Source: Holophagaceae bacterium
GTDB lineage: Bacteria > Acidobacteriota > Holophagae > Holophagales > Holophagaceae
DNA length: 54,216 nt
NCBI GenBank assembly: GCA_017859995.1
Contig: JAFJUR010000008.1
Location: forward strand, 1 to 54,216
Reading direction: 5' to 3'
The notes beneath the pieces are model-generated. The model did no database searches. It was not told the DNA's origin and saw only the letters and a program-made list of their open reading frames with translations. This document shows, piece by piece, positions 9,981 to 14,124 of the stretch. Made by a program: the position numbers and the translations under genes. Position 1 is the stretch's first letter; every line of letters begins with the position of its first letter.

Positions 9981-10901
9981 ATGACCCGCATCGCATTCCT
10001 CGGCACCCCCCGCGCGGCCGTCCCGGCTTTGAGGGCCCTCGCCGAGGAAGGGGTCGCGGCAGTCTTCTGCAATCCCGACCGGCCCGCCGGCCGGGGCCGC
10101 CACCTGGAGGCCCCGCCGGTGAAGGTGGCCGCCCTGGAGCTGGGCCTGCCCCTCCACCAGCCCCTGGACTGGAAAGCGCCCGAGACCCGCGAGCTGTGGG
10201 AAGGCCTCAAGGTGGATCTGGCCGTGGTGGTGGCCTACGGTCACATCCTGCCCCGCTGGATGCTGGATTCCTGCGCCCTCGGCGTGTGGAACCTCCATTT
10301 CTCCCTGCTGCCCCGGTGGCGCGGGGCCGCGCCCGTGAACCATGCCCTCCTGGCGGGGGATGAGGAAACCGGGGTGAGCCTCATGCGTCTCACCCCGGGG
10401 CTCGACGAGGGGCCGGTGCTGGCCCAGAGCCACCGGGACATCGGGCAGCAGGACACGGCGGAAAGCCTGCTGACGGCCCTCGCCGCCGACGCGGCGGAGC
10501 TGCTCATGGACCAGCTGCCCCTGCTGCTCTGCGGCTGTGCGCGGCCCGAGGAACAGCGGCACGAGCTGGCCACCTACGCCTCGAAGCTGCGGAAGGATAT
10601 GGGCCATCTGGACTGGCGCCGGCCCGCGGCGGACCTGCACCGCCAGGTGCGGGCCCTGTGGCCCTGGCCCGGCTCGGAGCTGCAGATGGAAGGGCAGCCG
10701 CTGAAGGTCTGCGGGGTGGGCGCCCTGCGCACCTGCTACCGAGATCCCGGCCAGCTGCTCTGGGGCAAGGAAGGCGCCTGGCTCACCACCACGGAAGGCG
10801 CCCTGGAGCTGACCCAGCTGCAGCGCCCCGGCAAGCCCGTCCAGCCCGCCCTCCAGGCCCTGCAGCCCTGGGGCGCCAGCGGCAGCCACCTGCTCGCCTG
10901 A
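9981..10901 (+). CDS. fmt: Methionyl-tRNA formyltransferase
   Basis: It transfers a formyl group from 10-formyl-THF to Met-tRNA-fMet. The N-terminal Rossmann-like catalytic domain contains FLGTPRAAVPAL, and WNLHFSLLPRWRGAAP holds catalytic N104 and H106, with the matching Asp at 142 in LTPGLDEGPVL. The C-terminal tRNA-binding OB-like domain follows from about residue 205. At 306 residues it is close to the usual ~310. It is the second gene of the def-fmt operon. The 400 bases after it hold only a hairpin repeat array. Confidence 0.96.
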   Translation: MTRIAFLGTPRAAVPALRALAEEGVAAVFCNPDRPAGRGRHLEAPPVKVAALELGLPLHQPLDWKAPETRELWEGLKVDLAVVVAYGHILPRWMLDSCALGVWNLHFSLLPRWRGAAPVNHALLAGDEETGVSLMRLTPGLDEGPVLAQSHRDIGQQDTAESLLTALAADAAELLMDQLPLLLCGCARPEEQRHELATYASKLRKDMGHLDWRRPAADLHRQVRALWPWPGSELQMEGQPLKVCGVGALRTCYRDPGQLLWGKEGAWLTTTEGALELTQLQRPGKPVQPALQALQPWGASGSHLLA

Positions 10902-10976
10902 AGGCATCCACCCCCGAATTCGCCCCGCCCAACAGAAGGCCCCACCTCCGCAATTCCGCAAGCAATAGCCTAAGGA

Positions 10977-11304
10977 GCGCGGAACCCTGGAGTGCATCAA
11001 GCGAGGCGCAGCTCCGCCGGGTCGAGCGCGGGGGTCCGGGGGTGTGCGCGCAGCGCAGAACCCTGGAGTGAATCAAGCGAGGCGCGGCTCCGCCGGGTCG
11101 AGCGCGGGGGTCCGGGGTGTGCGCGCAGCGCGGAACCCTGGAGTGAATCAAGCGAGGTGCGGCTCTGCCGAGCCAAGCGTGGGGGTCCGGGGCTGTGCAC
11201 GCAGCGCGGAACCCCCGGATGACATCAAGCGAGGCGCGGCTCCGCCGAGCCAAGCGCGGGGGTCCGGGGGTGTGCGCGCAGCGCGGAACCCCCGGATGAC
11301 ATCA
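10977..11304 (+). repeat. Tandem array of ~76 bp hairpin repeats (4 full units plus a partial)
   Basis: Units begin at 10977, 11053, 11128, 11204 and 11281, each with GCGCGGAACCC or a close variant, giving periods of 76, 75, 76 and 77. The fifth is cut at the TPR gene and supplies that gene's stop codon. Each unit folds as nested hairpins. In unit 4 the outer stem CCCCCGGA (11212-11219) pairs with TCCGGGGG (11263-11270), and the inner stem GGCTC-CGCC-GAGCC lies at 11238-11251. Units 1-3 replace outer C-G pairs by T-G, and units 1-2 do so in the inner stem, so pairing survives as G-U in a + strand RNA. There are no unique spacers, so it is not CRISPR. The rest of the gap (10902-10976) shows nothing. 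Confidence 0.88.
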
Positions 11305-14124
11305 GGCCAGGCGGGCCGCCACGTCGCGGTAGTCGGGATCCATGTCGTAGACCGCCTTGAATTCCTCCGAGGCCATGCCGGTGTGGCCCTGCTGGAGGTA
11401 GATCTCGGCCAGGTCGTAGCGGAGCCCGATGCTGTCCTCGGGCGGGAAGCCTGGAGAGAGGATGCCCTGGCGGAGCCATTCCACGGCCGCGCCGAGGTCG
11501 CCCCGGGCCTGCTCGCAGATGCTCAGCATGGAGCAGCACTCGAGGGTGCGCTCCGGATCGCCCATGGCGATCTTGAACTCCTCGATGGCAGGGTCGATGA
11601 GCATCATCTCCTTGTAGGCGATGCCCAGGTTGTAGTGCGTGTCGTAGTCGTCGCCCTTGACCTGCTTCTCCACGCCCTCGCGGAAGGCGCTGAACAGTTC
11701 GTCGACGCTCTGGATCTTCTCCACCACGCGGGTGGCGTCGTGCATCTCCTCGCCCTCGCCCGTGTCCATGAGAGCCGTGCCCAGCACGTCGGTGAGGTCG
11801 AAGAAGGAATTCGCGAAGTCGCTTTCGTCGAGAGCGCTGGCCTTGGCGGGGGCGACTCCCAGTTTCTGGAGGGCCGCTTCCGCGCGGTCGAGCCGCGCCT
11901 CGAGTTCGGGGTGCCCCGGGAACTGGCGCAGGGCCGCCTTGATCTCGACCTTGGCCTCTTCCGGGCTGCCGTAGTCGAGCTGGAAATCGATGTCGCCCAG
12001 CAGGCTGGCCAGGTCTTCCGACAGGGCCGCGGGGACGAGGCCCGGCGCGGCGGGCACCGGGGGGTCGGTGGGAAGGGCCGAGATCGCCTGGATCTCCTCG
12101 GGGGAGAGCTGCCGCGTCGGGATGGGCGGCAGGGGCATCGTGGGCGCCGAGGAGGAATCGGCCGCGGGGATGGGCTCGGGCGAGAGGTCCGTGAGCGTCG
12201 CGTCCATCCAGCTGAGGTCCGAGGCCTCCAGGGCCGCGGGTTCGCGGTTGGGTTCCGGCAGCGGAAGTGGCGGCACATCGAAGGCCAGCGGCGCGAAGGG
12301 AGGCGGCGCGAAGGGATCGGGGGGCAGTTCCGCCTGGTCGGGAAGGAGCGGAAGTCCCTCGCCCAGGGCGATGGGCTCAGGGGCGGAGGCGGCGGGGGCC
12401 TTGGCCGGCGGCGGCGGCTCGAAGCCGGGGACGTCCAGCCCGATGAGCACGTCCAGGTCGTTGGGCGGCGGCAGGGGGATGCTGGGCGATGCCGGGGGGG
12501 CCGCAGGTGCCGAGGGAGACGGGGCGGGGGCGGTCGTGTGGGCCCGGGAGGCGGGCGGTGGCAGCACGCCGGGTTCCGGCAGGCCCATGGCGCGGCGGTG
12601 GATGCGGGTGGAGCCGGGGAAAAGCTGCTCGGCCATGTCCAGCAGGTGGGCGGCCTCCCGCTTCCGGCCCAGGTGCACGAGGGCCTGGGCGCTCTGCACG
12701 TACTGCATCTGAACCTGCGTGAGGCGCCCGGTGGTGCGGTGCACGGCCACGATGGATTCGATGATGGTGAGATCCGTGGGATCCAGATCCAGCGCCTTCT
12801 TGTAGGTCTCGATGGCGCGTTCCGGGCTGCCGCCCCGCAGCAGGGCTTCCGCCTCGCGGGAGAACTGCTCGATGCGCAGACGCTTGACGGGATCCACTTC
12901 CGTTTCGCCGCCGTGCCGGGTGATGTCCTGCGGCGGCAGCGGCTCGAAGCCGCCGGACGTGGGGGCAGCGGAGAACCCGGTCGGCGCCGGGGCGACCGCG
13001 CCAGGCACCACGCCCAGCGCCTGAAGCTGCGTCGCCAGGTGGCTCATGAGGGACTGATCGTGGTTCTGGTGGGCCAGGCCGTAGGCGCTCTGGAGTGCAT
13101 GGACCTGGTCGGCGCGGTTGCCGCTCTGGTGGGCGATCTCGGCGAGCAGGGTCCAGGCCTCGATGCCGATGTTGCCCTGCAGGGCGGTGCGAAGGGTGCG
13201 GCCCACGGTGTCGCCGGAGCCCCGCCGGGCGAGCTCCCGCGCGATGGGGGCGAAGAGGCGGAGGCCCTCCTCGGCGCGATCCGAGTTCACGAGGGTGCGC
13301 AGGGCCTTCTCGCAGAGCGGGAGCGATTTTTCAGGCAGCTGGGCGATCTCGGAGAGCGCCTCAAGGGCCCGGTCCGGATGGCCGCTGCGCAGCTCGATTT
13401 CCGCCAGGGCCTCCAGCAGGTCGGTGTTCCGGGGGTTGGTGGCGAGGCCTTCGCGCAGGTGCTGGGCGGCGGTGGTGTAGTCGCCCTGGATCACCCCCAG
13501 CCGGCTCTGGGTCAGGTAGACCTGGGGCGTGGAGATCATCGCCTTGGCGCGCTCGAGGATCTGGTTGGCCTCGCCGTGCATCTGCTCCATGGCGAGGGAT
13601 TCGGCGACCTCCAGGTAGATGCCGGCCGCACGGTCCTTCATCCCCTCCTTGTTGTAGAGGTCCGCGAGCTTGACCTTCATCTTCAGGTTCTTGGGGTCGA
13701 GGTCGACGACCTTGTTGAATTCCTCGAGGGCGCGCTTGATGAGACCCTTCTTCTGGAAATGCTCGGCCACCTGCAGGTGCACCTTCACCGCGTCGGTGGT
13801 CTTGTTCATCTGGCGGTAGAGGTCCGCCAGGCGCTGGGCTGCGTCGATGTCCTCGGGGGCGTTGCGCACCACCTTCTGGAAGATGGCGGCGGCCCGGGCG
13901 TGAAAGCCGTCGCGCTCGTACGAGCCGCCGAGCCGCTTGTGGATGTCGACGCCTTCCTTCACCCGGCCGATCTGCACGCAGAGGTCGCCGATCTGGTTCA
14001 GGGTGTTGTAGTCCTTCGGATTGTCATCCACGAGCTTCTGGAACTCGTCGATGGCCCGCTCCACCTTGCCCGCCGTCAAGAGCTTGTCGGCTTCCTTCTT
14101 GACTTTGATGCGATCAATGGCCAT
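11302..14124 (-). CDS. Large tetratricopeptide-repeat protein
   Basis: This 940-residue soluble protein is built of TPR helical hairpins. The N-terminal array runs to about residue 380, with units such as AIDEFQKLVDDNPKDYNTLNQIGDL and ALEEFNKVVDLDPKNLKMKVKLADLY. More units lie around 415-510 and near the C-terminus (DTHYNLGIAYKEMMLIDPAIEEFK). A Pro/Ala-rich low-complexity linker (about residues 525-690) separates the groups. There is no signal peptide or catalytic domain. It probably scaffolds a complex; the partner is unknown. The cytidine deaminase lies 65 bases upstream on the same strand, and TACACT (minus strand, 14163-14158) is a candidate own promoter. Confidence 0.87.
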   Translation of the reverse strand: MAIDRIKVKKEADKLLTAGKVERAIDEFQKLVDDNPKDYNTLNQIGDLCVQIGRVKEGVDIHKRLGGSYERDGFHARAAAIFQKVVRNAPEDIDAAQRLADLYRQMNKTTDAVKVHLQVAEHFQKKGLIKRALEEFNKVVDLDPKNLKMKVKLADLYNKEGMKDRAAGIYLEVAESLAMEQMHGEANQILERAKAMISTPQVYLTQSRLGVIQGDYTTAAQHLREGLATNPRNTDLLEALAEIELRSGHPDRALEALSEIAQLPEKSLPLCEKALRTLVNSDRAEEGLRLFAPIARELARRGSGDTVGRTLRTALQGNIGIEAWTLLAEIAHQSGNRADQVHALQSAYGLAHQNHDQSLMSHLATQLQALGVVPGAVAPAPTGFSAAPTSGGFEPLPPQDITRHGGETEVDPVKRLRIEQFSREAEALLRGGSPERAIETYKKALDLDPTDLTIIESIVAVHRTTGRLTQVQMQYVQSAQALVHLGRKREAAHLLDMAEQLFPGSTRIHRRAMGLPEPGVLPPPASRAHTTAPAPSPSAPAAPPASPSIPLPPPNDLDVLIGLDVPGFEPPPPAKAPAASAPEPIALGEGLPLLPDQAELPPDPFAPPPFAPLAFDVPPLPLPEPNREPAALEASDLSWMDATLTDLSPEPIPAADSSSAPTMPLPPIPTRQLSPEEIQAISALPTDPPVPAAPGLVPAALSEDLASLLGDIDFQLDYGSPEEAKVEIKAALRQFPGHPELEARLDRAEAALQKLGVAPAKASALDESDFANSFFDLTDVLGTALMDTGEGEEMHDATRVVEKIQSVDELFSAFREGVEKQVKGDDYDTHYNLGIAYKEMMLIDPAIEEFKIAMGDPERTLECCSMLSICEQARGDLGAAVEWLRQGILSPGFPPEDSIGLRYDLAEIYLQQGHTGMASEEFKAVYDMDPDYRDVAARLA

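Follow-up and report, generated by a model that had tools for sequence, protein, structure and literature searches.

A dispersed REP-like element with two hairpins at stop codons of Geothrix genes and its possible role as a transcription terminator

Background

In a contig of a Holophagaceae bacterium, the gap between two convergent genes, fmt and a gene encoding a TPR-repeat protein, is occupied by a tandem array of short repeats that ends on the stop codon of the TPR gene. A preliminary description of the stretch of DNA analysed here (54,216 nucleotides, hereafter the window) read the array as a structured RNA transcribed from the plus strand downstream of fmt, with nested hairpins kept by G-U pairing. 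The locus therefore raises the question of what the repeat unit is, which strand it belongs to and what it does at the end of a gene. The source genome (258 contigs totalling 3.23 Mb, with a completeness of 89%) is probably that of a Geothrix, and the repeat was followed through this genome and its relatives.

Results and discussion

The array and its neighbours

The array was detected with TRF and with a separate repeat search of the window. TRF returned four units of approximately 75 to 77 bp and a partial fifth, with 90% matches and a score of 495 to 497, confirming the earlier account of four full units of about 76 bp and a partial fifth between fmt and the TPR gene (Table 1). That the last unit provides the stop codon of the TPR gene was also correct, as the final TCA of the array is TGA on the minus strand. 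The fmt stop codon lies approximately 75 nt from the array. The TPR protein shows partial similarity to the C-terminal region of SgmX, below the cut-off of the SgmX family.

Table 1. Features of the window and loci with related elements (L and G numbers are our identifiers of loci and genomes)
Feature	Position or loci	Strand	Basis or remark
Whole array, four full units and one partial	10976..11304	-	TRF and repeat search; sense strand from the orientation of arrays
Unit 4, copy anchored at the stop	11229..11305	-	covariance model R1, 77.8 bits
Unit 3	11152..11228	-	covariance model R1, 65.9 bits
Unit 2	11077..11151	-	covariance model R1, 61.8 bits
Unit 1	11000..11076	-	covariance model R1, 58.5 bits
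Partial fifth unit, stub of hairpin B	10977..10999	-	sequence; minus strand TGATGCACTCCAGGGTTCCGCGC
Hairpin B of unit 4	11263..11296	-	alignment, covariation and fold; TCCGGGGG 11263-11270, CCCCCGGA 11289-11296
Hairpin A of unit 4, imperfect in its subfamily	11229..11256	-	alignment, covariation
TPR stop codon TGA, last bases of the element (TGATG boundary)	11302..11304	-	sequence; plus-strand TCA
TPR-repeat gene (940 aa), to which the element belongs	11302..14124	-	gene call
fmt, methionyl-tRNA formyltransferase, convergent neighbour	9981..10901	+	gene call
Long forms of the element	L201, L096, L007, L014, L004, L013, L044; secDF loci L340, L342, L345, L351		
Decayed copies	L247 (G018, TPR); L390, L395 (G049, G050, fur); L378, L373, L369 (fur)		
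Second palindromic repeat at the TPR stop	L225, L228, L235, L239, L241, L248		other Geothrix genomes
Y1 elements of ~770 bp	L018, L020-L024		G020 contig 1, around 0.70, 1.20-1.22, 2.68 and 2.98 Mb

A unit of two hairpins

An alignment of approximately 70 copies, many of them single, defined the true unit as 79 nt consisting of two adjoining hairpins, A and B. On the plus strand of the window, hairpin A is followed by GCGGGGG, hairpin B and GANCATCA. Across the family, hairpin A has a variable, covarying stem of 13 bp with the tip CGGC-NNN-GCCG, and hairpin B, composed of TCCGGGGG, the inner stem GCGC-GCA-GCGC and CCCCCGGA, is nearly fixed in sequence. In the sense RNA, the stop codon (UGA or UAA) is followed by what is usually UG and three bases, then by hairpin B, the spacer CCCCCGCG, hairpin A and a T-rich tail. 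Folding of the sense RNA returned the same two hairpins; in unit 4 the foot of hairpin B lies 5 nt past the TPR stop codon.

The stems of the preliminary description were wrong because the tandem had been cut in the wrong register. Its outer stem, CCCCCGGA...TCCGGGGG, joins the 3' arm of one unit to the 5' arm of the next and is impossible in single copies, which hold only TCCGGGGG-loop-CCCCCGGA. Its inner stem, GGCTC/GAGCC, is off register, with two-sided changes in 2 of 185 cells, barely above shuffles, and unit 1, for which GGCTC had been given, reads CAGCTC.

The corrected stems are supported as being under selection for base pairing. Among 37 curated copies, two-sided changes were found at 14 of the 26 pairs, and at 11 of 13 in hairpin A alone. 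In the set of 122 distinct copies, two-sided changes affect 22 of the 26 pairs, pairing stands at 91.6%, and two-sided cells number 335 compared to 95 in shuffles, with none of 500 shuffles as high; this larger alignment was fitted to the covariance model and hence leans towards it, and slid controls reach at most 104 cells. The sequence of stem A is free, with four pair types at several positions, and its pairs are almost perfect. Compensation in the 122 copies is almost all Watson-Crick and wobble is rare on either strand, with G-U in 47 of 3123 cells on the plus strand and 111 on the minus strand. The outermost pair of hairpin B, which accounts for 51 of those 111 cells, is a standard pair (U-A or U-G) in at least 112 of the 122 copies on the minus strand and in 65 on the plus strand. 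Pairing kept by plus-strand G-U, as described for the window, is thus a correct reading of units 1 to 3 but not a property of the family.

Two other readings of the unit were tried and rejected. In one, the first GGGGG was paired differently (GGGGGTCC with GGAACCCCC), which gained no support from compensated copies, for example CCA/TGA and TGC/GCA. A coding reading, in which TGATG is a start overlapping a stop, was set aside as neither the ATG behind the stop nor the length is constant from copy to copy, and the stems compensate.

Variants of the unit were also noticed. Long forms carry an extra hairpin or a branched insert of approximately 100 nt in the loop of hairpin B, and are possibly the parent form of the element; an Rfam search at eight long-form loci gave no match except a tRNA. 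Decayed copies either retain hairpin A but have lost part or all of B, or consist of just the TGATGTTCTC end, which indicates that the element is lost by internal deletion.

Distribution of the element

The array as a query found 35 places in its own genome. A covariance model (R1), the construction of which had been proposed beforehand, was then built from family copies and gave 52 matches in this genome, mostly intergenic; the four window units, at 58 to 78 bits, score far beyond chance. R1 matched all 47 Geothrix genomes searched, with tens of copies per genome. Several further genera of the family gave weaker matches, and two other families of the class gave none. Among 199 genomes of the phylum, matches at 1e-5 occurred only in Geothrix and one sister genus. 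Many genomic copies with variation that ignores the stems had been named beforehand as grounds for refutation; the copies found are many and their variation respects stems, but other ones than those first drawn. Rfam returned nothing at the array up to E = 1, and the literature searched yielded no paper on such repeats in Geothrix. The best reading of these data is a new dispersed, REP-like element family of Geothrix and its near relatives.

A repeated look-alike, CAGCCCCGCCGGCGTTTGAGGCGCGGGGGTCCGGGGGCGGAGCCCCCGG, with two hairpins around the same 17-nt core, was observed in Streptomyces genomes (L047-L161). Its distance to the upstream stop codon ranges from 2 to more than 1000 nt with no fixed register; it was rejected as a stop-anchored element and served as a negative control.

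Anchoring at stop codons

Genes were called with a simple home-made codon-based caller, which was checked on the window and applied to 71 arrays from the source genome and its relatives. A neighbouring gene past the CATCA end was called for 70 arrays, and in 65 of them it is directed towards the element. The stop codon of this gene occupies one exact register in 33 of 57 arrays; in 50 of the 57 it falls between -9 and +4 nt. By a stricter count, 48 of 71 arrays are anchored at the stop of a co-oriented gene and 23 are not; in a wider set of 147 copies, 69 share the register. The 5' end of the element sits on the stop as TRA-TG, and the usual distance from the stop to the start of hairpin A is 46 nt. 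The orientation of the element and its anchoring to the stop of the co-oriented gene make minus the sense strand in the window, and support the array as a 3'-UTR element of the TPR gene. Selection on RNA structure, as first suggested, therefore holds for the pairing but not for a plus-strand RNA downstream of fmt: the same 48 of 71 arrays end on or within a few nucleotides of the stop of the minus-strand gene, and the T-rich tail follows hairpin A on the minus strand only.

Anchored stops are TGA in 30 cases, TAA in 11 and TAG in 1, compared to 220 TGA, 142 TAG and 32 TAA for other genes, and a T precedes the stop in approximately half of the copies versus 9% in other genes. The boundary reads YTRAT in most copies, with exceptions, and this pentamer was also seen at several copies with no in-frame stop. 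Copies with YTRAT lie at stops in 49 cases and elsewhere in 10, whereas element-free YTRAT sites are divided 55 to 356, an approximate ratio as the sampled loci were chosen for having an element. YTRAT alone thus does not explain the placement.

Genes that carry the element, named by reading their sequences and not by a domain scan, include those for EF-G, DnaK, the ribosomal proteins L21, L27, S15, L31 and L35, SucC, Fur, SecDF and cytochrome oxidase subunits. EF-G, DnaK, L21, L27, S15, L31, L35 and SucC are products of core genes that are usually highly expressed. The next gene is co-directional at 29 anchored arrays, and at 5 of these it is less than 50 nt away. At two loci (L197 and L316, in G024 and G018) copies follow both rplU (L21) and rpmA (L27), one of them within the operon, between rplU and rpmA.

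Gain and loss at fixed genes

Orthologous positions were compared for the TPR gene, secDF and fur. At the TPR stop, the element is present at the same nucleotide in 9 of the 43 genomes with a readable flank (the copy in G018 is truncated), and the other 34 have different DNA after the stop. The stop codon is TAG in 29 of the 34 element-less genomes and TGA in 8 of the 9 that carry the element. The end of the TPR protein, PDYRDVAARLA, is unchanged in nearly all genomes, and the gene has therefore not been shortened by the element. Presence is patchy on the Geothrix tree, with 7 changes for TPR, 9 for secDF and 5 for fur, and at least 4 of the TPR changes are forced by well supported branches of the TPR tree. 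Remnants of the element seen at fur show that losses contribute to this pattern. At the TPR gene, where the element-less genomes mostly stop with TAG, independent acquisition at one position would be the simpler reading. The downstream DNA diverges too fast for a clean empty-site junction to be drawn, and the best cases are G061 versus G046 and G062 versus G023 or G045. In several element-less genomes the corresponding position behind the TPR stop is taken by a second palindromic repeat, GGGACAGGATTAACAGGAT...ATCCTGTTAATCCTGTCC, with a T-run in some.

Terminators at secDF and tails of hairpin A

The ends of secDF were compared between genomes that carry the element and genomes that lack it. 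In each of the 15 readable genomes that lack it, a GC-rich hairpin lies 13 to 37 nt past the stop, in most cases accompanied by A- and T-runs; 2 of the 14 genomes that carry the element keep this native terminator. In these two, G061 and G062, the element separates the secDF stop from the native terminator. No native terminator was detected within 330 nt at the other 12 element-bearing loci, where hairpin A is present with 11 to 14 bp and a T-rich tail. Across 12 genomes the secDF copies contain at least four different A stem sequences, with all 13 pairs kept and one G-U. While this pattern suggests a replacement, loss of the native terminator could also come from deletion or neutral decay without a functional takeover.

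The 13-bp stem A is a GC-rich hairpin of the kind found in intrinsic terminators. The 8 nt after it contain on average 3.5 T versus 1.5 further downstream, and four or more T occur there in 55% of copies versus 3% further on. The U-tract is weak in almost half of the copies, and several tails begin with CTGG or GGAT. Copies inside operons (as at rplU-rpmA, or with gaps below 50 nt) make full termination unlikely at those places, where it may be partial. Termination does not explain why hairpin B is so strongly conserved in sequence. In an E. coli system, terminator efficiency is maximal more than 27 nt from the stop codon, where a stop-bound ribosome no longer blocks folding (PMC4824070).

Proposed function and alternative explanations

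We consider it probable, at about 0.6 and from sequence comparison, that the repeat is a REP-like dispersed element acting as a stop-anchored transcription terminator. Hairpin A and the T-rich tail would form an intrinsic terminator and a barrier at the 3' end, in places probably a partial one. Hairpin B and the spacer may keep hairpin A at a distance of approximately 46 nt from the stop, beyond the reach of a ribosome that is terminating there. We infer termination from the tails and the secDF loci, and mobility from the patchy presence: the unit would have been acquired repeatedly at stop codons and would have taken over from the native terminator, which was then lost. A bolder version is a mobile family delivered specifically to stop codons, with its own TGA/TAA boundary and a ready terminator, that repeatedly displaces the terminators of core genes. 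Such a self-spreading terminator is conceivable, and we hold it tentatively. If the terminator reading is right, a single spreading repeat can replace the terminators of core genes at an invariant position with respect to the stop codon. The genus would then provide genomes with just the native terminator, with both or with just the element, as a natural series for direct study of terminator turnover, ribosome-terminator spacing and stop targeting.

Two alternatives keep the element at gene ends and assign termination a lesser part. It is possible, although doubtful, that the repeat is a purely selfish MITE- or REP-type element with a TTRAT-like pentamer as target, which hits stops because TGA and TAA lie in the target, any terminator effect being incidental. 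The excess of T before the stop, the YTRAT boundaries with no in-frame stop and the patchy occurrence are in keeping with this, as is ISDra2 of the IS200/IS605 family, which inserts 3' of its target TTGAT (PMC2806898). However, background YTRAT sites lie mostly off stops and the element on them, the 29 of 34 element-less TPR relatives that end in TAG have no YTRAT there, and the stems are maintained. Nor is a mobilising enzyme evident: no Y1 transposase (PF01797) was found in the source genome at 89% completeness, 3 of 31 Geothrix genomes have one, and the repeat was not found at the Y1 loci examined in G020, G041 and G014. A REP-like element of translation or mRNA decay is a serious rival, although we regard it as rather unlikely; termination would then not be its job, and hairpin B would tune expression by stalling the terminating ribosome or by blocking 3' exonucleases. 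Such a role would fit the fixed distance of hairpin B from the stop, its conserved sequence and the copies within operons; its foot 5 nt after the stop falls within the range of 15 nt from the stop at which E. coli REPs are reported to stall ribosomes (PMC12306157). It gives no account of native terminators vanishing where the element is present, of the T-rich tail or of the compensatory upkeep of hairpin A.

The remaining alternatives question whether the element acts in the minus-strand transcript. A DNA-level site for protein binding, cruciform formation or recombination is improbable; Watson-Crick compensation serves both strands equally and hairpin B is conserved in sequence, but a sequence-specific site would not leave the sequence of stem A free, and the fixed stop register and the loss of terminators point to transcripts. 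The original proposal, in which G-U pairing maintains a structured RNA transcribed from the plus strand downstream of fmt, now appears very improbable. In its favour, units 1 to 3 keep the pairs of hairpin B through plus-strand G-U, and units 2 to 4 fold mildly better than shuffles on the plus strand (z of -1.5 to -2.3). Against it are the orientation and anchoring of most arrays to the minus-strand gene, the confinement of the T-rich tail to that strand, the distribution of wobble cells (47 plus, 111 minus, the latter mostly at one pair) and the misplaced stems.

Relation to known repeats

Mycobacterial interspersed repetitive units (MIRUs) are 77 to 101 bp long, occur in tandem and have boundaries that overlap stop codons (TGATG); they are coding-like and lie inside operons. 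The Geothrix element differs from this description in its paired stems and in sitting mostly at gene ends. It resembles ordinary intrinsic terminators in having a GC-rich stem followed by a tail that is T-rich overall and in standing in place of the native terminator at secDF, and differs from them in that homologous copies occur at tens of unrelated genes and that a second hairpin fills a fixed 46-nt offset.

The element also resembles REPs and BIMEs (PMC3733652, PMC8266576), which are likewise short, dispersed palindromic repeats with tens of copies, tandem clusters and positions at the 3' ends of genes; the 52 matches in the source genome, mostly intergenic, have this many-copy, extragenic character. 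BIMEs have been reported to terminate or attenuate transcription (PMC2965389). Unlike these repeats, the Geothrix element joins two different hairpins in a fixed order within approximately 79 nt, in a register fixed to the stop. The GTAG and CGTC superfamilies of REPs are defined by a tetranucleotide tag beside the palindrome (PMC3733652); neither tag was present in the consensus of 37 copies and no RAYT was found in the genome. Like the Geothrix element, MITEs derived from IS200/IS605 have a left and a right hairpin, with a TTGAT-like pentamer immediately beyond the left end. The motif at the Geothrix element is only loosely defined, as YTRAT, and most TPR relatives without the element lack it; no partner TnpA or candidate IS was found in the source genome. 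Inverted repeats of the neisserial DUS (PMC2397512) likewise supply rho-independent terminators after genes from a genome-wide repeat; the DUS is an uptake signal of 10 to 12 nt, whereas the Geothrix unit is 79 nt with a terminator stem free in sequence.

As a separate observation, contig 1 of G020 carries six near-identical Y1-transposase elements of approximately 770 bp (Table 1), the right end of which matches repeats of approximately 110 bp that are scattered nearby and resemble an attC array in appearance.
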